Positions 8,904 through 55,713 of a stretch of DNA of 64,000 nt are shown one piece after another; positions within the stretch are counted from its first letter, which is position 1, and each line of letters begins with the position of its first letter. Origin of the DNA: Conchocele bisecta (taxonomy: Eukaryota > Mollusca > Bivalvia > Lucinida > Thyasiridae); assembly GCA_029237695.1 (NCBI GenBank), contig CM055279.1, positions 23,687,919 to 23,751,918 on the forward strand, given 5' to 3'. Below the pieces are notes generated by a model. The model did not search any database, was not told the DNA's origin, and saw only the letters and a list, made by a program, of their open reading frames with translations. A program made the position numbers and the translations under genes.

Positions 8904-9208
8904 TTTATCCCGTCAACACAGTGCGTATATGCCGTGAAACACGGTGCCGTGAAACATTTTTGATATCCTGTCAATACGATCTAATCACTGCGTATGAATA
9001 TGTGCGGTGGCTGGGGTTATATTTTTGCATTTTACAGCCATTTGTAGGTGTTGACGGGATAATTAGAATAGTAGATTAGTGCCGTGAATGGGAAAATATC
9101 TGGCGCGGCATGGAAACGGGATGTGCTCGGCAGAGCCCCGCCCATCCCGTTTCCTGAGCCTTGCCAGATAGTTTTACCCATTCACGACACTAACCTACTA
9201 TTCTCTAT
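8904..9208 (+). mobile_element. Double-hairpin element DH-A, copy 1
   Basis: Full architecture. Stem 1 is TTATCCCGTCAACAC at 8905 and its complement GTGTTGACGGGATAA at about 9050. Stem 2 follows directly: AATAGAATAGTAG and taGTGCCGTGAATGGGAAA pair with the copy of the complement that ends AACCTACTATTCTCTAT at 9208. The loop of stem 2 holds gtgctcggcagagc. Stem 1 contains its own small hairpin, GTGCCGTGAAACACGGTGC. It has no coding capacity. Confidence 0.8.
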
Positions 9209-9287
9209 ATATGTGCACGCTGGCACGTTTTAATATTCATCAACAGCGAGCCATTCAACTGGTATTCAAATAATCAAAAAGAGTAAT

Positions 9288-9712
9288 GTACGGAGCCCCT
9301 CAGGGGACATGGATTTTGTTTATTCATTCGTTCCCACGAACAATCGAATTAACAATTCGTTCCCACGAAATGACAATTCGTTCCCTAAATTTAACAATTC
9401 GTTCCCTCGAATTAACAATTCGTTCACACGAAATCACAATTCGTTCCCTCAATTTAACAATTCATTCCCTTGAATTAACAATTAATTCCCATGATATAAC
9501 AATTAGTTCCCACGAATTAACAATTCGTTCCCGTGGGAACGAATTGTAATTTCGTGGGAACGAATTGTTAAATTGAGGGAACGAATTGTTAATTCGTGGG
9601 GAGGAATTGTTAATTCATGGGAACGAATTGTTAAATTGAGGGAACGAATTTTTATTTCGTGGGAACGAATTAATAAAAAAAATAATTCTACGTCCCATGC
9701 GGGGCTCCGTAG
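9288..9712. mobile_element. CGTTCCC palindromic array element, copy 1
   Basis: Ends are tacggagcccctcagggga and its near complement (tcccatgcggggctccgta). Each end is itself a small hairpin (GGAGCCCC/GGGG). The interior is a 21-bp unit (AACAATTCGTTCCC plus a variable 7-bp tail) repeated about nine times, then inverted after the centre cgttcccgtgggaacg at 9528-9543. Tails appear in a set order (cgaaat, caattt, cgaatt, gatat types). Because 21 is a multiple of three and the unit lacks stops, spurious ORFs run on both strands. Confidence 0.75.
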
Positions 9713-9817
9713 AAATGTGTATACAAAATGCGATATACTCCGCAACATAACTAACTAAACACAAACACGTATACTTGTGGTGCACTAATCAGACATAAAT
9801 ATGGGGCTGATAACATT

Positions 9818-10330
9818 TATGGCTGTGATTGGAGAAATGAAATAGGCCTTATGGGATTTGTGACCAGTGCAGCTCCTGATGAAATATCACGCTCCTGTAG
9901 CCTGCTAAGGATCTTTATCCCGTCAACTATGTCGCTACTAGACGTGAAAAGCATGTACGTGTATTTTTTCTCGTTCACGTCTAGTAGATACGTCATTATG
10001 TATGACGTTACGTCATTATGTGAATGACGTAACACGATAATCTTGTCGCTTCAGAAGACAAACTTATGAGGCCACAAATGCATTTTTAGAGACATTTGAA
10101 CAACTTTGATGTGGTTAACGGGATAAATAGAATATTATTATAGTGTCATGAACGTGAATAAATATCTGACTCGGCTCGAAATCAGAATGTGCTCGGCAAG
10201 CCTCGCCCATCCTGATTTCTCAGCCTCGACAGATATTTATTCACGTTCATGACACTGTACTAATATTCTCTATATATTGCTTGTTAGAAGCATGATAAGT
10301 GTTTCATTGATAGAATGGTGAACAGTGCAA
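9818..10330. mobile_element. CTTATGG MITE interrupted by DH-C
   Basis: The left part ends ctgctaaggatct at 9914 and the right part resumes atattgcttgttagaagca at 10274. The uninterrupted form is seen at 24325 (acgatctatagtgcttgtt), which fixes the insertion point. Confidence 0.6.
9915..10273 (+). mobile_element. Double-hairpin element DH-C
   Basis: Begins TTATCCCGTCAACTATG. The stem-1 partner (ttaacgggataaatagaata) is at about 10105. The second stem (gtgtcatgaacgtgaataaa, with complement at about 10232-10253) surrounds tgtgctcggcaagcctcgcc, like the DH-A loop. It ends AATATTCTCTAT. The left hairpin also holds an inner pair (gctactagacgtgaa / ttcacgtctagtag). The stems differ from DH-A while the ends are the same. 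Confidence 0.7.
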
Positions 10331-10609
10331 TTGGGGAGTGTGACTTTTTTGTTATTGATGAAAAAGTACAGGGTGGCCCAAAACAACTTGGACATTTACA
10401 TATTGTTGTCTGTGCTGTTTGAAGAATGTATATTGCGTACTGCTTTTGCACGGATTGTGACGTCATTATAAGTATGACGTCACGAGGTCATACTCCAGAA
10501 TTTCTATTCCTGACACGCGCGTAGCTGCATTAAGGCAAAAATGCAATAAAAATAGGCAACATTTTGCCAATACAAAGGTGTTTTGAAACGTGCCAGAGTG
10601 CTCCATTTA

Positions 10610-10742
10610 CCTTCTTTTTTCTTTTTTCTGGGGGGGGGGGGGGGAGTGGGGCATGCCCCCAGACCCCTAGCATACTCGCACCAACGGTGCTCGGAAGTCG
10701 TCAACCGGGCCTGTAGATTCAAATTGGCTAGCTACGCCCCTG
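10610..10742 (-). mobile_element. Transposon end fragment CAGGGGCGTAGCTAGCC
   Basis: On the minus strand it begins caggggcgtagctagccaat and leads to a G/C-homopolymer (14-15 bp) next to a tggggcatgccccca palindrome. The terminus resembles hAT-like MITE ends. The other end was not found. Confidence 0.35.
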
Positions 10743-11149
10743 CCTGAGAACGTTGTGAAACAGTTGAAAAGCCGTACAATCTATTAGCCATTGTTTTCAT
10801 TGAAAAAGTCAAATAAATGATATACTGAACAGATTAAATGCATAAATAAATATTCCTTTCATGTACAATGCCATTAACAGCAAATAACACACAGCAGAGT
10901 TGGTAAATGCCACCAGTAAACATGCTACACGCGCAAGACTGAGAAATTTAATGCTCAAAAAGTGACACGAAGTCAGCAATTCGTATTTTTAGCAAAATTG
11001 AGGCAAACTTGCATTACATAATGCCTACTGTAAGCGGTGAAGCGGTGAATACTTGTATTGTATTACTCGATGGTGGATTTAATGCACTAAATGCAATTTT
11101 TCAGCATGAAAGTGGTTTAGTACCATTTTACAGCAGTTGTATAGCATTG

Positions 11150-11593
11150 CCAAGGTGCATGATCACATGGTTAGATCAACAACAACAATGGCAAAGTGTT
11201 GAAAGCGCGCCAACTGCAAAGTAAGTATCATTTGATAGTTTCTTTAATATGCAGCGGATTTTGATGAAATATGGCGCAGCAAACGCGTCTTCATGTGCTG
11301 CATTTGGTGGTCCCGGCACATTGGCTCATACTTATGTCGTTTCTGCGTAAAATCGATTTCCGTGTCAGTAGACACGGAAATCGATTCTTCATAAAAACGA
11401 CAGAATTTTCGGCCAAAGTACCGGGACCACCGAATGCAGCTTAACAAGACGCGTTTGATGCGCCATATTTCATCAAAATCAGTTACATAATAAGGACAAT
11501 ATACAAGAATATGTACTTTGAATCGGAGGCGCTTCTGGAATTTTCAGTAATTGTTGTTGTAGTTGTAACCACGTGAGCATGCACCTTGGTTAC
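11150..11593. mobile_element. GCATGATCACGTGG palindromic MITE, copy 1
   Basis: The ends are aaggtgcatgatcacatgg and its complement, followed inward by a caacaacaacaat stretch. The middle palindrome contains tgaaatatggcgc, aaacgcgtct, tgcatttggtggtc and the central pair aatcgatttccgtgtc / gacacggaaatcgatt. It is about 440 bp, with five copies in the window. Confidence 0.75.
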
Positions 11594-12140
11594 GTAAATA
11601 TTATGTTTCTTTCGATTTCGACCCAGTGAAGTAAAAATCGCCATGGCAACAGTATGCGTGTGGTTTCGATAAAGTCAATATAAAATTAATATGCCAAATA
11701 TAATAATCAACATGTATATCAACATTTGTGAAGATTGAAAGATGTTATGTACTGTGTCCAAGTTTATTTGGGCCACCATGTACATACATTTAACGATATA
11801 TATGATTTAATATGTTTAATAGCCGAAGGTTCGTCGGCAGCAAAACGTGGAACAGACATTAGTTTTCATTGCAGTGAATCCTCACTAAACTGGGTTCCCA
11901 GGATGTCCGAATTAGAGTGGGTTAACTGTACATGAACGATTCATTTGTGGATAATTTCCAAGAAATGCGTACATGCACATATATACATGTAATTATGATA
12001 CCATGATCAGGCATAAACGTGATGTTAACTGTAGAAATGCGGCTTATGGGTTTGCGATCATTGAATCCGCAGTCTGAATAGGGCGTGCAGTGTTCACAGT
12101 TCAGTCCTTGACCCACACTGAATGCACCTGACAGTAAATA

Positions 12141-13487
12141 TACAGTCAAGGGACATAATTATTCACCACTTTCAAAATGACTGACAACACTTGTGGAAAT
12201 GAAACTGCTGTATATGTGGTCATTATTTTGTAACAGATTGAAATTTTACCTTAATATTTGGTCAGATTGCCTTTCATCCTAACTACTTCTGACAGACGTG
12301 TTGGAATTGGACTGGTATAGCTTTCTAACATAGTCTTGTTGGATGTTTTCCCAGACACGTCGAACAGCACAAATGAGCTCGGAGTTGGTGTGAATATTTG
12401 CTGCAGAAGGTTCTATGTCTCTTTTTAATTTCAGCCAAATATTTTCTATAGGATTTATGTCTGGTGACTGTGCTGGCCACGTTGTGTTGTTTATGTTGTT
12501 TGTTTCTATATATTCTTTCACTGAACGGGTCCTGTGGGCAGGGGCATTGTCATCCATAAATATATAGTCGTTACCATGGAAATGGCGTGCAACAACTGGC
12601 CACCAATTATCGTCAAGTATTTCAATATATTTAGTAGCATTTATGTTACTTTCTACTTGTGTTAATGTTCCGACACCTTCATAACAAATACATCCCCACA
12701 CCATCAAACTGACTCGCCCCCTTGGAGGTTCGTTCACAAGCTGGGGGTCGTTGACTTCAGAGCCCTTTCTCCAGATAAGCACACGGTTCTTTGCACCAAT
12801 TACAATTTGACTTTCATCACTAAATATCCACTTGCTCCAGTGTTCATCAACTGTCCATTTCCTTCTTTCTTTAGCCCACGTCACACGCTTTTTCTTGTTG
12901 GCATGCCTCACCACCACCCGTTTCTTGGCAACACGTCGCTTATACCCCAGATCATGGATTTTTCTCTGCAGAGTTTTAGTACAGAAAGTATGGTCCTTAC
13001 CCTCATTAATTATGCTGGTAATATCCTGGAGTGATCTCCTTCTGTTCTGTTTCACAACACGATAAAGTTGATTGCTATCCCTGTCTGTGAACAATTTCTT
13101 CCTGCCTCTTCCTGGTCTATTTTCTACAGTTCCAAATTCTTTATATTTCTTTATTATGCTCTTAATAGTGGACCGTGGTTATTAAATATTCTTGCCAATT
13201 CTGACTGATTTTGGCCAGACGCATAAGAAGTTATGATTAATTTTCTAACTTCACTACACGATTCTTTTTGTTTGGAAGCCATTAATCAAACGCAGTGTTA
13301 CCCATGGTTACAGGAAGTGCACAGCTTCCATTTTATGTCATGTGATCAGTTAATTATGATGTCATAATATGATGTCATTTATACTTCCTGTTGCATGTCT
13401 ATAAATAGCACACAGCGCATTTGCACTGACAGGGTAACCCAATTTAGACAATTTGGTAACAGGGTGGTGAATAATTATATCAGGCTA
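12141..13487 (-). mobile_element. Tc1-like DNA transposon
   Basis: A 1.35 kb element. The left end is TACAGTCAAGGGACATAATT then ATTCACCAC. The right end, read inward on the minus strand, is TAGCCTGATATAATTATTCA then CCAC. TA is present at both outer edges. It encodes one transposase on the minus strand. Confidence 0.75.
12251..13282 (-). pseudogene. Tc1-type DD34E transposase, two compensating frameshifts
   Basis: Cut-and-paste transposase of the IS630/Tc1/mariner superfamily. The largest open segment (12279-13094, 271 codons) has all catalytic residues: D in IFSDESQ (12816-12818), D in FMDDNAPAH (12549-12551) and E in SPDINPIENIW (12444-12446), with 34 residues between the second D and E. 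WPAQSPD precedes the E. Upstream, ATG at 13280-13282 opens MASKQKESCSEVRKLI, a helix-turn-helix start. One base is missing near 13180, after ELARIFN. The other frame then gives the second DNA-binding helix and GRGRKK. At about 12310 one extra base moves the true C-terminus (RLSEVVRMKGNLTKY, stop at 12251-12253) out of frame. The total is 344 codons, normal for Tc1. The protein is almost certainly inactive, but so few lesions suggest a fairly recent arrival. Confidence 0.9.
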
Positions 13488-14035: not shown

Positions 14036-14277
14036 GGCTGTAACTGGATAAATGGGGCTTATGGGTTTTGCGATCAGTGTAGATCCAGATCAGCCTGCGC
14101 ATACGCGCAGTCTGATCAGGATCTGCACTGTTCGCCATGCCATCAATGAAACACCCGTCCTGCTTCTAACAATCAATACAGATCGTTATCAGGCTATACG
14201 ACTGTGCTATTTGATCAGGAACTAAATTGATCACACATCCCATGAGCCTCATTCTTCAGTCACAGGCACATATATGG
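14036..14277. mobile_element. CTTATGG palindromic MITE, copy
   Basis: Runs from gtggctgtaactggataaat to cttcagtcacaggcacatat. The centre agatccagatcagcctgcgc / gcgcagtctgatcaggatct is well kept. It includes the tgcttctaacaatc half that serves as an empty-site reference for DH-C. Confidence 0.7.
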
Positions 14278-15685: not shown

Positions 15686-16030
15686 ATAGAGGATATTCAT
15701 ATTTTTGCAACGAATATGACATATGTTCATCTCGTGGTGTGGAATGTCCATATTTCACGAGATGAACATATATGTCATATTCGTCGCAAAAATATGAATA
15801 TTCTATTTATTATATACCGCTCCATGGAAATTAGTAGTTTTTTAGACTGTATACGGTAATGAATGTGTATTTGCACCCTATTTGCAGTCCGGTACTGCAG
15901 GTGCGCGTTATGAATATAGATAGCGGAAGTAGTCGTATTTTCACCGGAAGATGTTTATTTCATCGATGAGAACATATGACTTTTATTTACATCGTATAAC
16001 TATGTATTTCATGGGTAGGTATATAATAAA
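15686..16030 (-). mobile_element. Double-hairpin element DH-D
   Basis: Starts ATAGAGGATATTCATATTTT. Its stem-2 partner ends aaaaatatgaatattc at 15803 and is followed at once by TATTTATTATATACC. The stem-1 partner of that, GGTATATAATAAA, ends at 16030. The stem-2 arms also include gaatatgacatatgttcatc and its complement. The motifs ATAGAG-ATA, TATTCTATTTAT and terminal ATAAA match DH-A and DH-B, but both stems are unrelated to theirs. Confidence 0.65.
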
Positions 16031-18617: not shown

Positions 18618-18882
18618 TTTATCCCGTCAACACAGTGAGTATGTGCCGTGAAACACGGTGCCGTGAAACATTTTTGATATCCAGTTAATACAAGTTTTGC
18701 ATTTTACAGCCATTTGTAGGTGTTGACGGGATAAATAGAATAGTAGGTTAGTGCCGTGAATGGGAAAAAATATCTGGCGCGGCACGGAAACGGGATGTGC
18801 TCGGCAGAGCCTCGCCCATCCCGTTTCCTAAGCCTTGCCAGATATTTTTTCCCATTCACGGCACTAACCTACTATTCTCTAT
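18618..18882 (+). mobile_element. Double-hairpin element DH-A, copy 2
   Basis: A clean copy directly beside the previous MITE: TTTATCCCGTCAACACAGTG, stem-1 return at about 18722-18738, then the AATAGTAGG stem with loop gtgctcggcagagcctcgcc. It ends CTATTCTCTAT. No extra 3' module. Confidence 0.85.
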
Positions 18883-19713: not shown

Positions 19714-20160
19714 TGTACCGAGCCCCGCTGTTGACGTAGAATTCTTTTTTTATTAATTCGTTCAAACGAAATAACAATTAGTTCCCTCAATTTAACAATT
19801 CGTTCCCACAAAATAACAAATAACAATTCGTTCCCGTGGGAACGAATTGTTATTTCATGGGAACGAATTGTTAAATTGCGCGGGAACGAATTGTTATTTC
19901 GTGGGAACGAATTGTTAAATTGAATGCACGAATTGTTAATTCGTGGGAACGAATTGTTATATCGTGGGAACGAATTGTTAATTCGAGGGAACTAATTGTT
20001 AATTCAAGGGAACGAAATGTTAAAATCAGGGAAAGAATTGTCATTTCGTGAGAAAATATTGTTAATTCGAGGGAACGAATTGTTAATTCGAGGGAACGAA
20101 TTGTTAAATTGAGGAAACGAATTGTTATTTCGTGGGAACGAATTAATGAAAAAAAATCCA
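19714..20160. mobile_element. CGTTCCC palindromic array element, copy 2
   Basis: The left end gtaccgagccccgctgttga and gacgtagaattc is diverged. Few forward units remain before the centre cgttcccgtgggaacg (19831-19846). About 14 inverted units follow to 20145. The right TIR is missing: after aattaatgaaaaaaaatcca the sequence is unrelated. Confidence 0.7.
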
Positions 20161-24227: not shown

Positions 24228-24490
24228 GAGAACTAAATTGTGCTCGTGACTGGAGAAATGGGGGTTATGGGATTTGTAACTCGTGTATATAGTAATCAAA
24301 TAGCACACTCAGTATGTAGCATGACAACGATCTATAGTGCTTGTTCGAATCATGAAAATCATGACGTACGCTTAATTTATGGAATGGCGAACAGTGTAGA
24401 TCCTGTTTGGCCTGTGCGGATGCCTGATCAGCATCTAAACTGGTCGCAAAACACATAAGCCACATGTATCCAGTCACAGACGCAATTAAC
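24228..24490. mobile_element. CTTATGG palindromic MITE, copy
   Basis: Runs from gtgactggagaaatgggggt to tgtatccagtcacagacgc. It keeps the site acgatctatagtgc (24328-24341) that is empty of the DH-C insertion. Confidence 0.7.
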
Positions 24491-25992: not shown

Positions 25993-26235
25993 GGAATTTG
26001 TTGAATGTATTCATTTGCATTTAAACTGCCTCAATCAAAGCTGTCAGAGGGGGTCCTTAAATGAGGGATCGCCGACGTTTCGAGACAGATTTGTCATTGA
26101 TTGCCGACGACAGCAACATTGCAAACACAGCGACGTGTGCCGGAGATGCGAATGCTGACAATAAACACTAGTTACACCGTGGTTCGTCCGCATGCACGGG
26201 GAGAGAATCCACGAGTAGATTATTGGCAGTACAGT

Positions 26236-26940
26236 ACAATATCAGTAGCCTATTTCACCAACATTGCAAAGTATACTTTCCTAGCAAAGTATACTTTGAG
26301 GGAGAAATCTTCAATTTTGGATAAATTTATTAATTTTTATTATACTGAATTTATTACATTATCACAGCCAATTTGGCTGTGATAATGTAATACATTCAGT
26401 ATGATAATTCTGCATACTTTTAATCATCAAATATATGCAGTTGTTTGTTCTATATGAAATGATGCATTTCAGGAATAATACATGATTGCTCCCTCAAAGT
26501 ATACTTTGCTAGATAAGTATATTTTGCAAGTTTGATGAAATCGGCTACAGGCTAGTGTCTTTTGATATTAAGTTTATCAGGCAAGGCTAGGAAACGCGTA
26601 GGAATTCCGAGGCTTGCCGAGGAATTCCTACCGTTTCCGAGCCGAGCCTGATAAACTTGATATAAAAATACACTAGCCTGGTATTCTATTTATCAGGTAA
26701 CGTTTTATGCTCGAAAATGACATTATATGACGTCGTAATCTATGGACAGAACGCGAACTTGTTTACGTTGAGTCATTACACTGACGTCATTCGGTAACGT
26801 CATTTGACGTCATCCGACCAATGGAATGTCAGTTTTCACTTCGTTGTAACCCGGATGTTTATATCAGGGCAATGCCTGATACAACAATATGTTATCAGTC
26901 AGTACGTATTCGGTCAATACAGGGCAGGTTACCTGATAAA
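26236..26940 (-). mobile_element. Double-hairpin element DH-B, copy 2, with nested MITE
   Basis: It starts ACAATATCAG, a diverged form of AGAGAATACCAG. After the nested insertion it continues GGCTAGTGTCTTTTGATATT at 26551 and ends GTTACCTGATAAA. The junction at 26678-26692 reads ggtattctatttatc, identical to the DH-A junction motif. The other tandem copy reads cagtacagt-cggaca-accatcttct at the same place, an empty or nearly empty site. Confidence 0.7.
26246..26547. mobile_element. AGTATACTTTG palindromic MITE, copy 1
   Basis: Starts tagcctatttcaccaacatt then gcaaagtatactttcc and ends with the complement (agtatattttgcaagtttga, tgaaatcggcta). CAG flanks both sides (26243-26245, 26548-26550) and occurs once in intact DH-B, so this is a 3-bp CAG target duplication. 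The central hairpin is attacattatcacagccaat / ttggctgtgataatgtaat. Confidence 0.75.
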
Positions 26941-27935: not shown

Positions 27936-28105
27936 TTGTTGAATGTATTCATTTGCATTTAAACTGCCTCAAACAAAGCTGTCAGAGGGGGTCCTTAAAT
28001 GAGGGATCGCCGACGTTTCGAAACAGATTTGTCATTGATTGCGACGACAGCAACATTGCAAACACAGCGACGTGTGCCGGAGATGCGAATGCTGACAATA
28101 AACAC

Positions 28106-28539
28106 AGAGAGAATGTGCCGTGAAACACGGTGCCGTGAAACATTTTTGATATCCAGTCAATACAATTTTTGCATTTTGCAGCCATTTGAAGGTGTTGATG
28201 GGATAAATAGAATAGTAGGTCAATGCCGTGAATGGGAAAACATATCTGGCGCGGCACGGAAACGGGATGTGCTCGGCAGAGCCTCGCCCATCCCGTTTGC
28301 TGAGCCTTGCCAGATATTTTTTCCCATTCACGGCACTAACCTACTATTCTCTATCTATTTTCCTTATTTCTGAACCAAAGTATATGTTGTGACCACTCAT
28401 TTGAAACGTCTCGTCGAGACGGTTTAAATGGTTGTCGCTACATATACTTCTGATGAGAAATAAAGAAATTCTATTTTCCGTTTCCTGAGCTTTGCAATAT
28501 ATTTTTTCCCATTCACGGCACTAACCTACTATTCTCTAT
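28106..28539 (+). mobile_element. DH-A element with one 3' module, 5'-truncated
   Basis: The usual TTATCCCGTCAACACAG start is missing; it opens agagagaatgtgccgtgaaa. The stem-2 hairpin ends CTATTCTCTAT at 28354 and is followed by an extra module: ttatttctgaaccaaagtat, a decayed CGAGACGG hairpin (28396-28446), agaaataaagaaattct, then a second partial stem-2 arm ending CTATTCTCTAT at 28539. Confidence 0.75.
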
Positions 28540-28781
28540 TTACACCGTGGTTCGTCCGCATGCACGAGGAGAGAATCCACGAGTAGATTATTGGCAGTAC
28601 AGTCGGACAACCATCTTCTATAAATAGTTCCATATATTGTCGACTGTCTTTCTCACGAAAGCTAATGACATATTGCTATACATTGTATTTATAAACAATG
28701 AAAACAAATTTTCTACGATATTATTAAATTACTATCAATATTTGACCAAAATTCACGAAATAAAAATGTAGTCTCGTATAC

Positions 28782-35716: not shown

Positions 35717-35831
35717 GCTCTACGAAAGTCCGCCCAAATTTGAATGCGTGAATTCGTGAGTGCGGGAGTGGGTCAATGAAACAATTTAAACGTGCCACCA
35801 ATGCAAATGTAGATTGGCCTAAAATAGTTTT

Positions 35832-36239
35832 TTATCCCGTCAACACAGTGCGTATGTGCCGTGAAACACGGTGCCGTGAAACATTTTTGATATCCAGTCA
35901 ATACTATTTTTGCATTTTAAAGCCATTTTTAGGTGTTGACGGGATAAATAGAATAGTAGGTTAGTAGGTTAGTGCCGTGAATGGGAAAACATATCTGGCG
36001 CGGCACGTTTCCTGAGCCTTGCCAGATATTTTTTCCCATTCACGGCACTAACCTACTATTCTCTATCTATTTTCCTTATTTCTGAACCAAAGTATATGTT
36101 GTGACCACTCATTTGAACCGTCTCGGCGAGACGGTTCAAATGAGTGGTCACAACATATACTTCTGATGAGAAATAAAGAAATTCTTGAGCCTTGCCGGAT
36201 ATGTTTTCCCATTCACGGCACTAACCTACTATTCTCTAT
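35832..36239 (+). mobile_element. DH-A element with one 3' module
   Basis: Starts TTATCCCGTCAACACAGTGC. The stem-2 hairpin is short because its left arm joins the right arm early (ggcgcggcacgtttcctgag). Then comes one module: tctgaaccaaagtatatgtt, the perfect CGAGACGG hairpin (36096-36155), aaataaagaaattcttgagc and a second CTATTCTCTAT end. The unoccupied sequence exists at 41250-41400 in inverted orientation. Confidence 0.8.
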
Positions 36240-37160: not shown

Positions 37161-37978
37161 CCACTAGTGATAAGCCTCAGTATTGAGGGTATACCAGTAT
37201 ACTGGCAAAAGCAAAGCAATATAGAAACTGTATTAGTACATTTACGATCATTTTAAGAAAAAATAACTAGGCTAAGAATCTTCAGTGATAATATTCCCAA
37301 TTTTCGCAATCTCAGTCGTCATTGAGCACGACTGTCACTTCGAGAGTTATACACATTTTGCCCATTTTTGGTATGAATTGTGTTAAGTTTTGCATTTACT
37401 TTTTTTCATTAACCCAGTGCTGTGTCAGAGGTGTTTGTATCCTGGACTACAGCAACAGGTGCACTAGACGCACACTTGCAATGCATACTTTATTCCGTAG
37501 GTCGTGTTCTCCAATTATCCCGGATCGCTTGACTATGTCTTGTATTTTTAAACTCACATCAGCGAAGTTAAGTGCAGCGTGGCGGCTATAGAAATTTTCC
37601 AGGTGTGCACATGTCCTTCCAGTGATGCTATTATTATCTCGATCCCTGGTGGTCTTTGAGCACATTTTGACTATTGTTCGTATTAGTTTTGTCCGTTTTA
37701 CATACAGCTTCACTTCAGCTGTTGGTAAGAGGTACATGTGTCATGAATTGTGAATACAGCACAGGCCGTGACACAACCGAACAGGCGCAATAAAACAGCA
37801 GTTACAATGCATACTTGTTTCTGTCATGTCCACAGAGTATCATGGATCGCTTGACTTTGTCTTGTAAACAAAATCACAACATGTGCGCTTTCTATCCAAT
37901 GATATTGAGAGAGATATAGTGTGCTTCTATCTAACGATGTTGAAAGATAGATAGATAATATATGGATGTGGGAGAGAG
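37161..37978. repeat. Partial duplication, otherwise unassigned
   Basis: The stretch caatgcatactt...tggatcgcttgactttgtcttgta at 37806-37866 repeats 37480-37550 imperfectly, a duplication of about 320 bp. The minus-strand ORF at 37447-37737 (96 codons) has no recognised domain. Confidence 0.35.
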
Positions 37979-37982
37979 TGAA

Positions 37983-38041
<59 letters not shown>

Positions 38042-38043
38042 GC

Positions 38044-38090
<47 letters not shown>

Positions 38091-38092
38091 TC

Positions 38093-38124
<32 letters not shown>

Positions 38125-38173
38125 GACAGACAGACAGACAGACACAGACAGACAGACAGATACAGACATACAT

Positions 38174-38228
<55 letters not shown>

Positions 38229-38253
38229 TACATACAGACAGACAGACAGACAT

Positions 38254-38316
<63 letters not shown>

Positions 38317-38321
38317 TACAT

Positions 38322-38376
<55 letters not shown>

Positions 38377-38377
38377 T

Positions 38378-38419
<42 letters not shown>

Positions 38420-38572
38420 TACAGACAGACAGACATACAGACAGACAGACAGACAGACATACAGACAGACACAGACAGACAGACAGACAGACAGACCAGA
38501 CAGACAGACAGACAGACAGACATACAGACAGACAGACAGACAGACAGAGACATACGACAGACAGACATACAT

Positions 38573-38623
<51 letters not shown>

Positions 38624-38691
38624 TACAGACAGACAGGCAGGCAGACAGACAGACAGACATACAGACATACAGACAGACAGACATACAGACT

Positions 38692-38742
<51 letters not shown>

Positions 38743-38743
38743 T

Positions 38744-38810
<67 letters not shown>

Positions 38811-38907
38811 TACAGACAGACAGACAGACATACAGACATACAGACAGACAGACAGACAGACATACAGACATACATACAGACAGACAGACATACAGACAGA
38901 CAGACAT

Positions 38908-38966
<59 letters not shown>

Positions 38967-38975
38967 TACAGACAT

Positions 38976-39052
<77 letters not shown>
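37979..39052. repeat. (GACA)n microsatellite, 1.07 kb
   Basis: Nearly pure CAGA/GACA tetranucleotide with scattered CATA variants and a few single-base slips. Open frames of 100-377 codons run on both strands (DRQT or SVCL repeats) simply because the unit has no stop. Confidence 0.95.
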
Positions 39053-39054
<2 letters not shown>

Positions 39055-39574
39055 CATGGGTGTGGGAGAGAGAAAGGTGTTAAAATAAATACGGAATAAT
39101 GAAACTCCATTTCGTTGCAAATTGTTTTTCTTTTTTTCCCATAAAATATTCCAATGCGCATTTAAGGCATTTCTACTCCGATCATTTAAAACGCATATTT
39201 TCAAGCGTCTCTCGGGGGACTCTTCAGCGTTGTGATAAAAGCATCTTTAGTCTTCCTAACGACAACACAATTTTGAAATGCAGTAACTTCGTAAGCTATG
39301 TTCAGTATACTTACCGATGTTATCTAAATTTCGTTTTAGAAGCATTGGCCCTTCGGGCCAAATTATTCGTCGCCCGTAGTAGTAATACCACGTGTCGTAA
39401 AAAAACATCCTGCTTGGTTTATTGGTTTACGGCAAAACAAATTTTACACTTTCAATCATATGTTCAACATAGTTTCACTGAATGGTAAGTTTTCATATAC
39501 GCGTAACATAAAGCGGGCGACAAAGAGTCGCCCGTATTACACTTGTATAATTAGATATCCCCGTAGGTTACTAG
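39053..39574. other. Unassigned intergenic sequence
   Basis: A plus-strand ORF (39099-39488, 129 codons) crosses this stretch, but its composition is not protein-like and I recognise no motif. Confidence 0.3.
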
Positions 39575-40036: not shown

Positions 40037-40099
40037 CCCAATACATGTTGAGGCTATATTTAATACATTTTCATACTACTGTTTTAATTATGCACGGAC

Positions 40100-40175
40100 G
40101 TATATGTTGTTACCACTCATTTGAACCGTCTCGCCGAGACGGTTCAAATGATTTGTAACACCATATACTTTTGAA
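40100..40175. repeat. Free CGAGACGG hairpin
   Basis: The sequence tatatgttgttaccactcat then ttgaaccgtctcgccgagac with complement to catatac. Here the module stands without DH sequence. Confidence 0.7.
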
Positions 40176-40354
40176 TATAAATAAGAAACAAAATTGAACC
40201 ATTATTTAAAGTTGTTCATACCCCATATATGGATATTCAGCCTGACCTGGTGTTGATAACCTAACATGATATGTATACAACGATACAGTTACGACTAATA
40301 AGAAACAACCATAACTATATATGGTCAGCCCCATTCAGTTATTCGGGATGTTAG

Positions 40355-41037: not shown

Positions 41038-41250
41038 CAATTTGTTCCCACGAATAAACAATTGGTTCCCACGATATAACAATTCGTTCACACGAATTAA
41101 CAATTCGTTCACGTGGGAACGAATTGTTAAATTGAGGGAAAGAATTGTTAATTCGTGGGAACGAATTGTTAAATTGAGGGAACGAATTTTTATTTCGTGG
41201 GAACGAATTAATAAACAAAAGAATTCTACGTCCCCTGCGGAGCTCCATAC
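41038..41250. mobile_element. CGTTCCC palindromic array element, short copy
   Basis: Four forward and five inverted units around cgttcacgtgggaacg (41105-41120). The right end is cgtcccctgcggagctccata. Its right flank matches the inverted left flank of the 36273 element, so the two derive from one segment copied in inverted orientation. Confidence 0.7.
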
Positions 41251-41597
41251 TGTTTAGTACATTCTGGACTGTTGCCTGCAACAAAACTATTTCTAGGCCA
41301 ATCTACATTTGCATTGGTGGCACGTTTAAATTGTTTCATTGACCCACTCCCGCACTCACGCATTCACGCATTCAAATTTGGGCGGAACTTCGTAGAGCGC
41401 TTGCAATTACTGGCGCCAAGAAAGTAGCTGACAAACGTGTCCGCAAATCAAACTACTAAACATCCGGAGAATTTGTGTTGTAATTGAAACTCCGCATAAA
41501 AAGAAAGAGCCCGTACATAATTTGCCACCAGTGATTTGAATTGTAACACGTCCTGTTTTCCCAGTACAAATAAGGCCATACCATATCTTTTCTTTGT

Positions 41598-42212
41598 TAA
41601 GCGTCCACCGAGTTTTATCCCGTCACACAGTGCGTATGTGCCGTGAAACACGGTGCCGTGAAACATTTTTGATATATTGTCAATACGACCTAATCACTGC
41701 GTATGAATATGTGCTGTTGTCGTGCTAGTTGATTCTCCGATTTTGACGATGTGGCTGGGATTATTTTTTGGCATTTTAAAGCTATTTGTAGGTGTTGACG
41801 GCATAAATAGAATAGTAGGTTATTGTTGTGAATGGGAAACATATCTGGCGCAGCACGGAAACGGGATGTGCTCGGCAGAGCCTCGCCCATCCCTTTTCCT
41901 AAGCCTTGCCAGATATTGTTTCCCATTCACGTCACTAACCCCCGGAATTTCTTTGAAATCTACATTGCATTTCCTGCATTCTGGCGCATTTTGGAGCAAA
42001 ATTATTGCCGGGTCCGCCCCCACCCCCCCCTGAATCCGTCCATGACAACACTTATTAAGTGGACAATCATGAACGGATTCAATACTTGGACACGTCCCCA
42101 ATCAGTTTTCATATTACTTTACCAGTAAATAGTGAAAAATAGCATACGCATGTTTTTTGTTTTTTTTTATCACAAAACCACTTTCAAAGCCTACCCACAC
42201 GCGGACGCTTAA
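41598..42212. mobile_element. TTAAGCGTCC MITE holding a DH-A insertion
   Basis: Left end ttaagcgtccaccgag, right end complement (cctacccacacgcggacgct then taa). The same ends bound 53298-53546. The DH-A copy sits 17 bp inside the left end. Confidence 0.5.
41615..41940 (+). mobile_element. Double-hairpin element DH-A, nested and 3'-truncated
   Basis: Starts TTATCCCGTCACACAGTG. Carries gacctaatcactgcgtatga, as in copies 1 and 55432. The right end stops at gtcactaacc without CTATTCTCTAT. Confidence 0.75.
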
Positions 42213-44939: not shown

Positions 44940-45415
44940 TTTACCTCTTTCACCCTTAAGTAACTGTAGCCGATTTCATGAAAATTGCAAAGTATACTTT
45001 CCTAGCAAAGTATACTTTGAGGGAGCTATCATTGATTTTTCCGAAATGCATTATTTCATGCAGAACTAACGATTGCATATATTTGATGATTAAAACTATG
45101 CAGAATTATTATACTGAATTTATTACATTATCACAGCCAAAATTGGCTGTGATAATGTAATAAATTCAGTATAATAACAATTAATAAATTTATTCTAAAA
45201 TTGAAAATTTCTCCCTCAAAGTATACTTTGCAATGTTGATTAAATAGGCTCCTGGTGTTGACACACCCGTGCAAGCATTTTAATTATTGCATTAAAAGGG
45301 ATAAGGGATTTTTGTTTGTAAAAAATGTGAAGAGATCTACAAACAGTGCAGATCCTGATGAGACGGCTCGTTACGAGCCGGTTCTTCTGGATGTACACTG
45401 TTTGCAATCATTGAG
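44940..45415. mobile_element. TTAACCC MITE relic with nested AGTATACTTTG MITE
   Basis: The left part tttcacccttaagtaactg ends at 44966. The right part resumes after 45250 and ends with the hairpin gtgcagatcctgatgagac at 45347-45403. The family normally reads taactggaatgg at this point. Confidence 0.6.
44967..45250. mobile_element. AGTATACTTTG palindromic MITE, copy 2
   Basis: Starts tagccgatttcatgaaaatt then gcaaagtatactttcc and ends tgcaatgttgattaaatagg ct. Flanked by CTG (44964-44966) and cCTG, again a CWG triplet. The central hairpin cacagccaaaattggctgtg is perfect. Confidence 0.75.
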
Positions 45416-46951: not shown

Positions 46952-47265
46952 ATAGAGAATAGTAGGTTAGTGCCATGAATGGGAAAAATATCTGGCAAGG
47001 CTTAGGAAACGGGATGTGCGAGGCTCTGCCGAGCGCATCCCGTTTCCGTGCAGCGCCAGATATTTTTCCCATTCACGGAACTAACATACTATTCTATTTA
47101 TCCCGTCAACACCTACAAATAGCTTTAAAATGCAAAAATATAACCTCAGCCGCATCGTCAAAATCGGAGAATCGACTAGTGTGACAACCGCACATATTCA
47201 TAGGCAGTAATTAGGTCGTATTGACAGGATATAAAAAATCACGGCACCGTGTTTCACGGGATAAA
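46952..47265 (-). mobile_element. Double-hairpin element DH-A, reverse copy
   Basis: Starts ATAGAGAATAGTAGGTTAGT. Junction ctattctatttatcccgtca at about 47091. The first hairpin has lost its outer arm: it ends accgtgtttcacgggataaa. Confidence 0.8.
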
Positions 47266-48129: not shown

Positions 48130-48532
48130 CTACGGAGCCCCGCAGGTGATATGGATTTTTTTATTATTAATTCGTTCCCACGAAATAACAATTCGTTCAC
48201 TCAATTTAACAATTCGTTCCCTCGAATTAACAATTCATTCCCACGATATAACAATTCGTTCCCTAGAATTAACAATTCGTTCCCACGAAATGACAATTCG
48301 TTCCCTCAATTTAACAATTCGTTCCCTCGAATTAACAATTCGTTCCCACGATATAACAATTCGTTACCACGAATTAACAATTCGTTCCCGTGGTATACAA
48401 TTTTTCGGTATACAAGCAGTATAAAGAGGATTGGAACGAACGATTGCTGTCTTATGGAGTTCTTCTACTTGTTATTTCGTGGGAACGAATTAATAACAAA
48501 CATAATTCTACGTCCCCTGCGGGGTTCCGTAG
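48130..48532. mobile_element. CGTTCCC array element with TAAA duplication
   Basis: The ends ctacggagccccgcagg and its complement are intact, flanked by TAAA at 48126-48129 and 48533-48536. Ten forward units run in the order A B C D C A B C D E (see findings), up to cgttcccgtgg at 48390. The inverted half is almost completely replaced by unrelated sequence (48395-48468) before a final inverted unit. Confidence 0.75.
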
Positions 48533-49688: not shown

Positions 49689-50284
49689 CTATATGTGACT
49701 GTGAATGAAGAAATTTGGCTTATGGGATTCATATAGCTCCTGGTCAAACCAGGAGGGGACATAGAATTATTTTTTTTTATTAATTCGTCCCCACGAAATA
49801 ACAATTCGTTCCCTCAATTTAACAATTCGTTCGCTCGAAATAAAAATTATTTCCCACGAAAGAACAATTCGTTCCCTCAATTTATCAATTCGTTCCCAAG
49901 AATTAACAATTCGTTCCCTCAATTTAACAATTCGTTCCCACAAAATAACAATTCGTTCCCACGGGAAAGAATTGTTAATTAGTGTGAACGAATTGGTATA
50001 TCGTGGGAACGAATTGTTAATTCGAGGGAACGAATTGTTAAATTGAGGGAACGAATTGTCATTTCGTGGGTACGAATTGTTATTCAAAGTCGAGGGAACG
50101 AATTGTTATATCGTGGGAACGAATTGTTAATTCGACGGAACGAATTGTTAAAATGAGGGAACGAATTGTTATTTCTTGGGAACGAATTAATAAAACAGAA
50201 TTCTGCGTCATATGTGGGGCTCCGTATATGTGTGACTGAATGAAGAAATGTGGCTTATGGGATTTGTATAGCTCCTGGTCAAAC
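49689..50284. repeat. 61-bp direct repeat bracketing a CGTTCCC element
   Basis: The stretch gtgactgaatgaagaaatgt ... tatagctcctggtcaaac occurs at 49689-49749 and 50224-50284 with about 5 differences. It is the left end of the CTTATGG MITE family. Confidence 0.75.
49750..50223. mobile_element. CGTTCCC palindromic array element, copy
   Basis: The left TIR is shortened (caggaggggacatagaatt). The right TIR gcgtcatatgtggggctccg is nearly full. About eight forward units, centre cgttcccacgggaaag (49959-49974), then ten inverted units with the same order as the 48130 element. One junction is disturbed (ttattcaaagtcgaggg, 50080). Confidence 0.75.
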
Positions 50285-50869: not shown

Positions 50870-51305
50870 AGTCATGCTCACTCAGTAGGCACAAAATGAT
50901 CTTTATCGGAAATAAATAAGTGTATATATATTTGTGTCATTATTCCACCATACTGATAGTGATTCACGGTGGTATCAGGCTAATTTCATATGCAAATGAT
51001 GCATGAATTGTTTTAATTATTCATACGAATTAAATGCGTCACCTGAACAAAAAAATATTCGACAGATTATAAAGTATGATCATTGCACATTAAAAAAGAA
51101 TGAAATGTCCGTTAACATTTTAAGGAAACACGGTTATCACCCCTGATATCCGTTTGGAAATGTACGTCTGATATAAAATGTATAATAATACCAATCAACA
51201 CGTGGAGTAATGGTGAAAGAATGTTTATGTTGCCAGAAAATCTTTCAGACGGTGTCTCTGATAGAACGAACAGTTTGTGCCTACTGAGTGGGCATGTACC
51301 TTTGA
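50870..51305. mobile_element. GGTACATGCCCACT MITE, copy 3 (interior reversed)
   Basis: Both ends are present (catgctcactcagtaggcac and gcctactgagtgggcatgta cc). The interior runs opposite to copy 1: gtggtatcaggctaatttca precedes cggttatcacccctgatatc. Confidence 0.65.
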
Positions 51306-51572
51306 CCCGTACGGTATTAATGCTGATTTCCTTTTTTCCTCTCGTCAAAACATGGTTTGGCAACACCTGAGAATAATTTCAAATGGATCAAATTCTAAAC
51401 TGCTTTCAAACCATGTTTTTTATTTTGGAAGAAGACAATTTCCCGCATCATAATAGTTAATCTAAACAAGGATATCAATGTTGTATTGGTTGAGTTTGTG
51501 TTGTGCTCAGTCTCCCGTTATCCAACTGTCAGATTTCGAGTACAAAAGTTGAGAACATGCTCAGTTTGTCTT

Positions 51573-52404
51573 TTATCCCGTCAACACAGTGCGTATGTGC
51601 CGTGAAACACGTTGCCGTGAAACATTTTTGATATCCAGTCAATACTATTTTTTGCATTTTACTGCCATTTGTAGGTGTTGACGGGATAAATAGAATAGTA
51701 GGTTAGTGCCGTGAATGGGAAAACATCTGGCGCGGCACAGAAACGGGATATGCCCGGCAGAGCCTCGCCCATCCCGTTTCCTCAGCCTTGCCAGATATGT
51801 TTTCCCATTCACGGCACTAACCTACTATTCTCTATCTATTTTCCTTATTTCTGAACCAAAGTATATGTTGTGACCACTCATTTGAACCGTCTCAGCGAGA
51901 CGGTTCAAATGAGTGGTACTCATTTGAACCGTCTCAGCGAGACGGTTCAAATGAGTGGTCACAACATATACTTCTGATGAGAAATAAAGAAATTCTTGAG
52001 CCTTGCCGGATATTTTTTCCCATTCACGGCACTAACCTACTATTCTCTATCTATTTTCCTTATTTCTGAACCAAAGTATATGTTGTGACCACTCGTTTGA
52101 ACCGTCTCGGCGAGACGGTTCAAATGAGTGGTCACAACATATACTTCTGGTGAGAAATAAAGAAATTCTTGAGCCTTGCCGGATATTTTTTCCCATTCAC
52201 GGCACCTAACCTACTATTCTCTATCTATTTTCCTTATTTCTGAAACCAAAGTATATGTTGTGACCACTCATTTGAACCGTCTCGGCGAGACGGTTCAAAT
52301 GAGTGGTCGTGGTCACAACATATACTTCTGATGAGAAATAAAGAAATTCTTGAGCCTTGCCGGATATTTTTTCCCATTCACGGCACGAACCTACTATTCT
52401 CTAT
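51573..52404 (+). mobile_element. DH-A element with three tandem 3' modules
   Basis: Starts TTATCCCGTCAACACAGTGC. The standard stem-2 hairpin ends CTATTCTCTAT at 51835. Then three ~190-bp modules follow, each made of ttatttctgaaccaaagtat, the CGAGACGG hairpin, atacttctgatgagaaataa, agaaattcttgagccttgcc and an arm ending in the CTATTCTCTAT motif (about 52050, 52225, 52404). The first module has its hairpin core duplicated (51882-51960). Confidence 0.85.
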
Positions 52405-52511
52405 GTAGCAGGCACCCAGTATCGCTAGTGCTGCATTCCGCGCCGGCGTAAAATATTTCACGTCGAAAGAGGCGCCGGATTATTGACGAATTCCCATTCA
52501 GCTACATGCAG

Positions 52512-52604
52512 AAGATACTGCATAAACGAATTGTTCGTCTAGTAACCGGTGCAAGAAATTTGCGCTGGTTACTAGACGAATAATGCGTTTATACGATAGC
52601 TGTA
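52512..52604. repeat. Hairpin
   Basis: The sequence ataaacgaattgttcgtcta then gtaacc pairs with ggttactagacgaataatgc gtttat. Confidence 0.6.
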
Positions 52605-52921
52605 CAGCGCTCCAGATAAGGAATTAGTAATTGAGTATTGTCACCCCATCATTTCCGAAGCAATTGGGTATTTCAAAATTTTAATTGCATAAAATAAAAT
52701 TACACTACTGTTTACACATCAAAAGACATAAATTATTTAATAGTTTGCTTCGAAATGAAAACAAGTCTTGGCATTTCATTAGAAGTGTCTCCTTGGAGAC
52801 AATTCTAATGAAATACCAATATGTGTTTTCATGGGAAATAAGAATACTTCTGATTTCAATTGGGTTTTTGGCAATTTTAATTGGGTATTTACGCAAATAC
52901 GCAGCTTATCTGGAGCTCTGG
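52605..52921. mobile_element. GCTCCAGATAAG MITE, copy 3
   Basis: cagcgctccagataaggaat to cagcttatctggagctctg. Core hairpin ggcatttcattagaagtgtc / gacaattctaatgaaatacc. Confidence 0.7.
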
Positions 52922-53295
52922 TAGTAAATATAGCTGATTGGAATTTTGTTAGGGAACCGATTTCAAGCGAGTATTCCAGAGCACCAGTGAGTATTAGAAA
53001 TGACGTCATAATTTAACTCTAATTTCCACGTGAATCCGGTGCGATCCATTCTGTTATCGAGCTTCCGGCTTGTGCTGAAATAACTTTTCATCGTGTATTT
53101 CACAGATCCTGCCGGAAATTGGAAGAAATTTAATATCCAATGCATTTGTTTAACATTTTCATTACAAATACATTAACTGTCAATTAATAAATGGAAACGT
53201 GTACGAAATAAATGGCATTCCCACAGTAAAACATGAGAACTATTACTTCCAGCTTCAACCTGTGTACATGATAAGGCCATAACTAGTTCTTCATA
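52922..53295. other. Unassigned intergenic sequence
   Basis: Short overlapping ORFs on both strands without motifs. No repeat recognised. Confidence 0.3.
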
Positions 53296-53297
53296 TG

Positions 53298-53546
53298 TTA
53301 AGCGTCCGCGTGCGGGTAGGTTTTGAGAGTGGTTCTATGAATTACACTTAATACGTTTAATAAAAGTATTTTCTTATGATTTAGAGGCAATTTAAATTTA
53401 TGTTAAAAACTTCATCAACCCTTTGCACACTGCAAAGGGTTGAGAAAGTTTTTAACATAAATTTACAGTGAATTTTTTTTTTTTCAAACCCTTGTTTGTT
53501 TTTACCGGATATGTAAGTAGGTTTCGGCTATCCAGGTGGACGCTTA
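53298..53546. mobile_element. TTAAGCGTCC MITE
   Basis: Ends ttaagcgtccgcgtgcgggt / aggtggacgcttaa. The central hairpin aaatttatgttaaaaact / agtttttaacataaattt surrounds caaccctttgcacactgcaa agggttg. Confidence 0.65.
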
Positions 53547-53656
53547 ACAGAGAAAAACAATGGCATGTTCTAATACGAGCATTTTCATTAGCCGCATGTA
53601 GCCACTTCCGGACGAATGGCAACCGTTCATACAAGGACATAAACAAATGCCAGAAC

Positions 53657-54245
53657 TATGGTGGCATATATTTGCCATCGAGATGTCGAGATGTTGGCAC
53701 AATTTATCGCAACATGACGACTTAAATATCACGAAATGTCGACATACGTGGAACTATGTTAGCATATAGTGACAAATTATGTCGACATAACGTGATCACA
53801 AGTCGGCATACCATGATAGTCTAACACAACATGTCGACATAACGTGATATCATAAGTTATCACAAATCGGTATACCGTGATAGTCTAACACAACATGTCG
53901 ACGTAATGTGATATGTTAGCACAATATGTCGACTTACGGGGATATTTTATCTCAACATATCGACATATCGTAATATTTTATCTCAACATGTCGACATAAT
54001 ATGATAAGTTATCGTGACGAGTTGACACAAAGTGATAATCTAACACAACATGACGACATAGCGTAATAATTTAACACAACATGTCGACATAATGTGATAT
54101 TTTATTTCAACATGTCGACATTATTTATCTAAACATGTCGACATACTTTCACGTTATATCGACATGTTGTAATATTTAAGTCGACATGTTGCAATAAATT
54201 ATGTCAATATCTCAACATCTCGATGGCAAGTATATGCTACCATAC
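53657..54245. mobile_element. TIR element with ACATGTCGACATAACGTGATA array
   Basis: The ends tatggtggcatatatttgcc then atcgagatgtcgagatgttg pair with the complement ending ccatcgagatgttg... (tagcatatacttgccatcga). The interior is about 14 irregular 30-38 bp units around acaacatgtcgacataacgt, mostly forward, turning to the reverse near 54150 (acgttatatcgacatgttg). Confidence 0.65.
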
Positions 54246-54404
54246 ACAACAGTTGAACGTTTGTATTGAGTCGAAATTTCAAATGATATAAAAATGCAAT
54301 AATACGAAGACATACGAGACCTGTCTCAAAATAGCGAGACAAATAACATGTCTTTACTTTCCGGGATCGCGTAAAACAAGAACCAATGTTCCTGTTATAT
54401 TGCC

Positions 54405-54651
54405 TTAACCCTTTGAACCCGAAAGCCCGCTATATAGGTTTATGAAAACAGTGCAGATCCAGTTGAGCCGGCTCGTAACGAGCCGTCTCATCAGGATCTG
54501 CACTGTTTGAAAGTAATTTTCATATTTTTGAGAAAAACAAATACCCCCTTTTTATAAATGGAATAGTCTGAACATCATTTTGCGATGATTGGATTGGTTG
54601 CAAAACGAACATATCGCAGCCCATTCAGTTACTTAGGGGTGAAAGGATTAA
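54405..54651. mobile_element. TTAACCC MITE, complete copy
   Basis: ttaaccctttgaacccgaaa to taggggtgaaaggattaa. Confidence 0.85.
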
Positions 54652-54740
54652 TAACAATATTCAGCCAGTTACTTACATGTGTTCATGTTTCATGTGTTTT
54701 GTGCGAAATTGTCCTTTATTCCTGTAATGAGGGCTGTCGT

Positions 54741-54782
54741 GTTCGTTCGTGTGTGCACTTACACGCTGACCCCACTGTACAT
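54741..54782. mobile_element. Right end of the TACAGTGGGG palindrome
   Basis: gttcgttcgtgtgtgcactt then acacgctgaccccactgta matches 6484-6525. The left arm is absent. Confidence 0.6.
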
Positions 54783-54843
54783 AGAGAAAATCCACCAGCT
54801 TTTATTGGATACATAATATATTTTACGAGACAGCCAAAACACG

Positions 54844-55356
54844 TACTGTCTGTTTCACTAAACCAGCCCAATTTTTACGGCTATATGAATGATGAAAAAA
54901 CAATATATTTGTTCGATACTATTAAATTATAGCAACATTTAATAATGAGCCTACTTTTTATTTCGTGAAATTTGGTGCAATATTGATTTTACTGCTAAAA
55001 AACAACTTCCACATGTTAAATCCCCATATACATCTTCACAGAGTGAACCGATTTTCAAAATATAACTTTTGTTTTCTTAATAAGATCATTTACAAGCTAT
55101 CCAGTTAGATTTCAGAATCAATTTTTCGTTTTTCGTCTCCTCTTCCAGGTTCTCCACTTCTTTTGTTCCCCTGTTAAATTCCCATAGAGAACTTAATTTT
55201 CGTAATAAAATCAATATTTGACCAAATTTCACGAAATAAAAGGAAGAATCATTCTTAAATCTTGATAAAATTTAATATTATCGAGAAAAAAAATATAGTT
55301 TTTGCATTGTTAATATGGCCGTAACATTTGGGCAGGTTTCGTGAAACAGACAGTAA
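54844..55356. mobile_element. TACTGTCTGTTTCAC palindromic MITE
   Basis: Ends tactgtctgtttcactaaac / gtttcgtgaaacagacagta with inner ttacggctatat / atggccgta. Same inner layout as the GTCGGCAGC family, including ttaaatccccat / ttaaattcccat. Confidence 0.65.
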
Positions 55357-55431
55357 ATCGGTTGACTAAGTTAACGAGTGCGCAGCCCGAGTTAGTCAGT
55401 GGAAATACATGACTTGGCTGTCGAGAGACAT

Positions 55432-55713
55432 TTATCTCGTCAACACAGTGCTTATGTGCCGTGAAACACGGTGCCGTGAAACATTTTTGATATCCTATCA
55501 ATACGACCTAATCACTGCGTATTATTTTTGTATTTTACAGCCATTCGTAGGTGTTGACGGGATAAATAGAATCGTAGGTTAGTGCCGTGAATGGGAAAAA
55601 TATCTGGCGCGGCACGGAAACGGGATGTGCTCGGCAGAGCCTCGCCCATCCCGTTTCCTAAGCCTTGCCAGATATTTGTTTCCCATTCACGGCACTAACC
55701 TACTATTCTCTAT
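55432..55713 (+). mobile_element. Double-hairpin element DH-A, copy
   Basis: TTATCTCGTCAACACAGTGC to ACTATTCTCTAT, no extra module. Includes gacctaatcactgcgtat like the 8904 and 41615 copies, which may form a subgroup. Confidence 0.85.

Follow-up and report, generated by a model that had tools for sequence, protein, structure and literature searches.

Several families of short palindromic elements are scattered through a stretch of a bivalve genome. Are they one kind of transposon and, if so, which? The stretch comprises 64,000 nucleotides of Conchocele bisecta (assembly GCA_029237695.1, contig CM055279.1, forward strand, positions 23,687,919 to 23,751,918) and is referred to here as the window. 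A first-pass annotation, made from the sequence alone, described families A, B, C and D as mobile elements in which a first stem is followed directly by a second, with the short boundary motifs shared and the stems unrelated. We find that they are real non-autonomous transposons, short and gene-less. Together with a further family found here and labelled E (no identity with the DH-E family of that annotation is claimed), they probably represent several related non-autonomous rolling-circle families of Helitron2/Helentron type.

Boundary motifs and element plan

The shared boundary motifs described in the first-pass annotation were borne out. Allowing one mismatch, CTATTCTCTAT is matched 15 times in the window against 0.96 expected, and none of 100 shuffles reaches 15; the joint GATAANTAGAATA, with up to two mismatches, gives 28 matches against 12.4 expected. 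The annotated copies are present, after small corrections that put the left ends of the B elements at 1781 and 26940 on the reverse strand and that of D at 16030. Reading out copies of A, B, C and D gave a common plan: a 5′ TTTAT with an inverted repeat, a variable interior, the complement of the repeat ending in ATAAA, then TAGAATA, a long hairpin and finally TATTCTCTAT. The joint takes the form ATAAATAGAATA at the noted copies, A1 and B1 each being off by one base, and joint and terminus motifs are common to families A–E. D carries variant motifs, with TTTATT at the left (TTTATC in the others) and TATCCTCTAT at the right in place of TATTCTCTAT, while A and C have the left repeat TTATCCCGTCAAC in common. 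The two outer ends do not form an inverted repeat. Across 11 right ends the 3′ hairpin has 47–63 predicted pairs, and the 3′ inverted repeat lies approximately 120–155 bp from the 3′ end.

What had been called the first stem is a 12–16 bp inverted repeat pair, with one member at the 5′ end and its partner directly before the terminal 3′ hairpin. It is better taken as a pair of asymmetric terminal inverted repeats (ATIRs) than as a hairpin in its own right, since the pair is retained around other sequence in copies of 930 and 1288 bp. No 5′ hairpin involving the repeat was found in the first 60 nt of A, C and D (z −0.79 to 0.36); the same interval of B has a weak hairpin, CAGG-TAA-CCTG (z −0.22 and −1.55). 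The bare layout, a 12-bp inverted word followed by a hairpin, was rejected as evidence: it occurs at 160 places in the window and at 157, 292, 364, 336, 1028, 1326 and 273 places at seven decoy offsets, which is no excess. In so palindrome-rich a window it is thus the motifs, and not the layout, that carry the signal.

Right-end patterns were counted across the 1.89-Gb genome, using one 24-base pattern with up to two mismatches for A and 29–33-base patterns with up to three mismatches for B, D and E; C was not among the families counted. All counts are lower bounds. They come to at least 26,744 right ends for A (13,411 + 13,333), at least 11,014 for B (5,441 + 5,573), at least 5,353 for D (2,674 + 2,679) and at least 614 for E (297 + 317), or 43,725 in all, and the reversed control patterns for these four families had no match genome-wide. 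The best 100 places for D and the best 100 for B are all exact and fall within the first 73 and 64 Mb, respectively, of contig C1. Exact copies are therefore numerous, which suggests recent spread.

Insertion sites, hairpins and tails

Four elements, A3, C, B2 and A28, could be aligned to unoccupied relatives, and for A3 and C both junctions are readable. (A1–A6, B1 and B2 are copy labels, and A28 is the A element at 28101..28539.) A3 matches 41384–41185 at 93% over 201 columns, the empty site reading AGTTTT|GTTGC and the filled one AGTTT[TTTATC...CTCTAT]GTTGC. C was compared with two empty repeats (76% and 69% over 157 columns), which read GATC-T-GTATTG and GATC-T-ATAGTG. In both cases, the unit TTATC...CTCTAT enters beside one T, with no target duplication. 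The empty sites have neither stem, so both stems were inserted as one unit. For B2, set against 28728–28536, the left junction alone is readable, the right end having been damaged by a later insertion of terminal inverted repeat (TIR) type at 26246–26547. A28, which lacks its 5′ end and is likewise readable at one junction, was set against 26063–26235; it is joined to the target via a short shared AACAC, with the TAG of the empty copy missing, a junction that resembles one-ended or truncated transposition. Alignments for A1 (61%) and B1 (67%) were too weak and were dropped as unreliable, and a third relative of C (1781–1915) was set aside because of a deletion at the site.

The flanks of the nine complete copies in the window agree with insertion free of duplication: the two flanks share a single base in two cases, three bases in one case and otherwise nothing. 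In these copies, the base after the T is A in four, G in four and T in one (a purine in 8/9), and the base before it is A in five, T in two and C in two. A wider table combined the window with sampled loci, which were chosen for A right ends and so over-represent A and intact right ends. It has 32 rows, 24 of them with TTTAT, and A5 was entered at its first 3′ end only. A follows the T in 18 of these 24 rows, or in 15 of 21 once three L012 rows are dropped that had falsely taken the joint of an opposite copy as their left end. The outcomes that the first-pass annotation had named as telling against its reading, chance motifs or ordinary TIRs with target duplications, were looked for and not found.

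The right ends are more closely related than had been supposed. Far from differing completely between families, those of C and A are 73–78% identical, most over approximately 170 bp (blastn), those of A and B1 65–68% over approximately 160 bp, and those of A and B2 70% over 122 bp; D alone has an unrelated hairpin and differs throughout. RNAalifold, applied to the right ends of six A, one C and one B element, predicted 62 pairs, of which 22 keep their pairing via two-sided changes in at least one sequence. These compensatory pairs show that the shape of the hairpin is conserved. A, B, C and E also have a hairpin-tip module in common, CTC-(3 nt)-A(G)A-(complement)-TC, with 10 exact matches in the window (nine in these hairpins and one elsewhere) against 0.17 per dinucleotide shuffle (60 shuffles, largest count 2). 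The E tip is a compensated form, GCC-AGA-GGC in place of GGC-AGA-GCC, in a right end that folds with z −8.74, and the usual E joint is ATAAACAGAAT among the 100 E places listed of 614.

Repeated 3′ ends are present in three of the eight A copies in the window, with one tail unit each in A3 and A28 and three in A5. Each unit consists of a palindrome and a second copy of the last approximately 58 bp of the element, and tandem tails measure approximately 173–215 bp. The palindrome is near-perfect, with the tip CTCGGCGAG or CTCGCCGAG, and also occurs alone at 40083–40188 and around 6327–6463. As the empty site of A3 has no tail, the A3 tail lies inside the inserted unit and was either carried in or grown later. 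Elsewhere in the genome, the beginning of the same tail follows the first 3′ end in L019 and L028, and a second 3′ end lies at equal spacing in L017. At L032, an A element directly abuts, with no intervening host base, a second, 1288-bp element that has the same ends and a foreign interior; this is the sole head-to-tail junction in the 28 sequences (309 kb) scanned. A 930-bp copy with A ends and a foreign interior was found at L031; an exon-like ATG...GTAAGG stretch in this interior is possibly captured host DNA. By analogy, the tails, the head-to-tail pair and the foreign interiors resemble the read-through, concatemers and sequence capture of Helitrons, and would fit rolling-circle replication.

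Probable relationship to rolling-circle transposons

The first-pass annotation knew of no named superfamily with this description. However, Helitron2 (PMC3627910) and Helentron/HINE elements (PMC4067079; in oyster PMC7492417) are built to this plan, with one inverted repeat at the 5′ end, another subterminal at the 3′ end and a 3′ hairpin after it. Helitron2 starts with a 5′ T and has one inverted repeat within 0–2 bp of its 5′ terminus and the other immediately before the 3′ hairpin (PMC3627910), positions that the repeats of A, B, C and D also occupy. Its short non-coding copies nearly all lack a target duplication (1/200 Helitron-1N1_CRe copies had one), while the Fanzor-carrying CRe-1,2,3 do have duplications; the target in Chlamydomonas is TTTT|T/C (PMC3627910), which is not the target here. 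Helentrons and HINEs, including oyster Cg_HINE, have subterminal inverted repeats of 11–15 bp, a 3′ palindrome, no target duplication and high-copy non-autonomous families, with a TT or T-rich target and, in the mite families, a palindrome of 5–10 bp (PMC4067079; PMC7492417). The present families resemble Helentron/HINE/DINE-1 elements in their approximately 11–15 bp subterminal repeats, the palindrome near the 3′ end, the lack of target duplication (A3 and C) and their high copy number; they differ in that no inverted-repeat partner is seen close to the 5′ repeat of A, C and D, and the copies read contain no central satellite array.

Other rolling-circle elements provide partial likenesses. 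FoHeli1/2 of Fusarium have ATIRs and a 3′ hairpin and insert after T and before A according to the text (T in the figure legend), a target near to that found here, but they start with TCAG, end with ATTTT, carry hairpins at both ends and are approximately 5–6 kb long as full elements (PMC5148889). In Helraiser of bats, the 3′ hairpin is a terminator whose loop outweighs its stem, read-through beyond the end is possible, and head-to-tail circles are produced (PMC4778049). The hairpin, read-through and head-to-tail marks recall those described here, whereas Helraiser has 5′ TC and 3′ CTAG, that is, canonical Helitron ends, and no ATIR (PMC4778049). Canonical Helitrons (Helitron1; 5′ TC, 3′ CTRR, A|T target) do not match, as the ends here are T(T)TATC and CTAT and the target lies beside T. 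Bivalves have a high rolling-circle content, with a mean of 5.91% of the genome (PMC10294476).

The genome contains RepHel genes that are candidates for the partner. Helitron_like_N has 77 matches over the family cut-off, some lying side by side so that they may be one gene, with open frames of up to 2046 aa. Downstream of the match with the longest frame (L033, G000:C3:111906000-111915999), two adjoining long frames encode PIF1 helicase, Exo_endo_phos and OTU domains, which, beside a Helitron_like_N match, is the Helentron make-up described in PMC4067079; L043 (G000:C7:11822500-11828499) also encodes PIF1. The RepHel frame of L043 is followed by a very long palindrome with CCACCAACCTACGTCAC ends; this was rejected as a candidate right end for the frame because it has neither the joint nor the terminal motifs, and it is apparently an unrelated element. 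None of the eight window open reading frames scanned with Pfam has a Helitron domain. No RepHel gene was found between the ends described here in the few loci read, and with so few loci the RepHel link is neither supported nor refuted. Excerpts on the oyster non-autonomous families identify no autonomous partner (PMC7492417; PMC7992393).

A number of observations weigh against membership of these groups, or against the evidence for it. The 3′ repeat is approximately 120–155 bp from the 3′ end, compared with approximately 20–30 bp in Helitron2. Helitron2 also has a 5′ hairpin that involves the repeat (PMC3627910), whereas A, C and D have none and that of B is weak. The 3′ hairpin is several times longer than in known groups (47–63 predicted pairs versus 5–10 bp in mite HINEs), and the relatives of C have CT|G and CT|A where Helentrons insert at TT. 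Among the 77 RepHel matches, no such ends were found at the sense-downstream flanks of three loci (L033, L042, L043) or in the 2.1 kb upstream of eight (L034–L041), where element lengths are unknown. The tip module is not invariant: it is exact in 26 of 43 right-end rows from the window and sampled loci, a tally that counts tailed copies twice, while 13 of the other 17 rows are off by one or two bases and four have none (D, two shortened hairpins in L012 and one in L013). Matched arm changes can also arise by conversion between the arms of a palindrome, and the lone head-to-tail pair could be one element nested at the end of another. Given these mismatches in the position of the 3′ repeat, in the target (neither TT nor TTTT) and, for A, C and D, in the 5′ hairpin, we stop short of assigning the families to Helitron2 or Helentron as established members. 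Most likely, they act like Helitron2/Helentron and are a divergent branch of the same kind, with a partner that is as yet putative.

In such a scheme, a RepHel protein (HUH nuclease plus helicase) supplied in trans would nick the 5′ end (T|TATC...) and displace one strand as far as the 3′ hairpin and TATTCTCTAT, at which point a second nick would free a single-stranded or circular copy. The freed copy would then enter next to a T, in most cases with a purine after it, and leave the target unduplicated. The ATIR pair may serve to bring both ends together. The hairpin would be the terminator, its tip and flanking motifs being recognised and its arms free to change as long as pairing holds; this would account for the drift of arms, but not of short motifs, between families. 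The single machinery reading boundary motifs and hairpin that the first-pass annotation envisaged fits the joint and terminus shared by A–E and the insertion of the whole unit, although its enzyme is postulated. The families could thus be viewed as a natural experiment in the 3′-end requirements of a rolling-circle transposase, with arms that differ and a tip and short flanking motifs that largely stay, a pattern that the Helraiser loop and stem swaps would predict by analogy. With high-copy families, many exact copies and long open RepHel frames in one genome, a direct match between partner and ends could be made. Elements like these may be overlooked by repeat searches that are set to find TC...CTRR or short palindromes.

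A bolder and rather unlikely version is that of a distinct bivalve rolling-circle lineage with its own initiator, which would read the asymmetric tip CTC-SSC-A(G)A-GSS-TC and the joint ATAAAYAGAAT; families would swap or drift whole arms, and one enzyme would drive at least four families and more than 43,000 right ends in one genome. It is also unlikely that another single-strand HUH enzyme, an IS200/IS605-type Y1 transposase or a viral-type Rep, reads the end hairpins and that the Helitron2 likeness is convergent. Terminal hairpins are important for IS200/IS605 transposition, which makes no target duplication (PMC3627910). A long structured end, insertion beside a fixed base without duplication and the lack of RepHel between the ends in the few loci read would all suit such an enzyme. 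However, an inverted repeat directly before the 3′ hairpin is the specific Helitron2/Helentron layout, and IS200/IS605 elements are not known to carry a paired repeat before the right hairpin. The head-to-tail pair and the foreign interiors fit Helitrons, and the genome has RepHel genes, one with an endonuclease domain. Miniature inverted-repeat transposable elements mobilized by a DDE transposase, in which the first stem would be an ordinary TIR and the hairpin would either belong to it or be an independent palindrome, are very improbable. The perfect 12–16 bp inverted repeats, in a window rich in true palindromic and TIR-like elements, might suggest them, but the empty sites show that both stems move as one unit, the outer ends are not mutual inverted repeats, A3 and C lack target duplications, and the 1–3 bases shared by flanks of complete copies are at chance level. 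Chance or an assembly artefact, with AT-rich motifs lying beside palindromes of other origin, would suit a layout no commoner than in decoys, but is refuted by motif counts far above shuffles and, genome-wide, of hundreds to tens of thousands against none for controls, and by the empty sites.

Searches of the open-access literature, by title or passages, found no paper describing these ends, for which a repeat-library entry may well exist, and, judged by title, no transposon paper is among the 20 listed of 47 papers that contain one of two motif strings. The joint-to-end pattern had no match in viral or genome contig collections, nor had the A joint in viral contigs or A2 in phages; records of the source genome may be absent from these collections.

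Copies and other features of the window

The copies found in the window are listed below. For E at 5954–6106, a convincing left end was sought and not found.

Elements of families A–E in the window, with positions counted from its first letter
Feature	Position	Strand	Details
A1, complete A element	8904..9208	+	
A2, complete A element	18618..18882	+	ATIRs 18618-18633 and 18720-18735; 3′ hairpin ~18737-18882, 63 predicted pairs in last 153 nt
A3, A element with one 3′ tail unit	35831..36239	+	tail 36067-36239, palindrome and second 3′ end; empty relative 41185-41384
A4, A element	46952..47265	-	internal deletion shortens left repeat
A5, A element with three 3′ tail units	51572..52404	+	tails 51836-52050, 52051-52224, 52225-52404
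A6, complete A element	55431..55713	+	
A element lacking last bases of 3′ end	41614..41940	+	
A28, A element lacking 5′ end, one 3′ tail unit	28101..28539	+	tail 28355-28539; empty relative 26063-26235
C element	9914..10273	+	A-type left repeat; right end 73-78% identical to A; empty relatives 14124-14273, 24246-24396
B1, complete B element	1395..1781	-	
B2, B element, 3′ end broken by TIR-type element 26246-26547	26548..26940	-	empty relative 28536-28728
D element	15686..16030	-	repeats TTATTATATACC / GGTATATAATAA; unrelated hairpin; end TATCCTCTAT
E, right end only	5954..6106	+	joint GATAAACACAAT; hairpin z -8.74; end CATCCTCTAT
Tip module example CTC-GGC-AGA-GCC-TC, in hairpin of A2	18800..18815	+	

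The TIR-type element within the 3′ end of B2 has the form TAGCC...GGCTA, and a second copy lies at 44966–45231. Palindromic arrays of a TTCGTTCCCACGAAAT-like short repeat occupy 9349–9676, 19750–20160, 48160–48400 and 49770–50200, the first of them flanked by GGAGCCCC and GGGGCTCC. A long AGAC/GTCT microsatellite extends over 37950–39090; oyster HINE elements are reported to contain GTCY microsatellites (PMC7492417), so this interval may hold a HINE. An open Tc1/mariner-type transposase frame (DDE_3, HTH_Tnp_Tc3_2) is present on the reverse strand at 12279–13178. The window also contains a G-protein-coupled receptor frame, for which the best named matches, among the best 120 of 458, are from Pecten, Ostrea, Magallana and Mactra.

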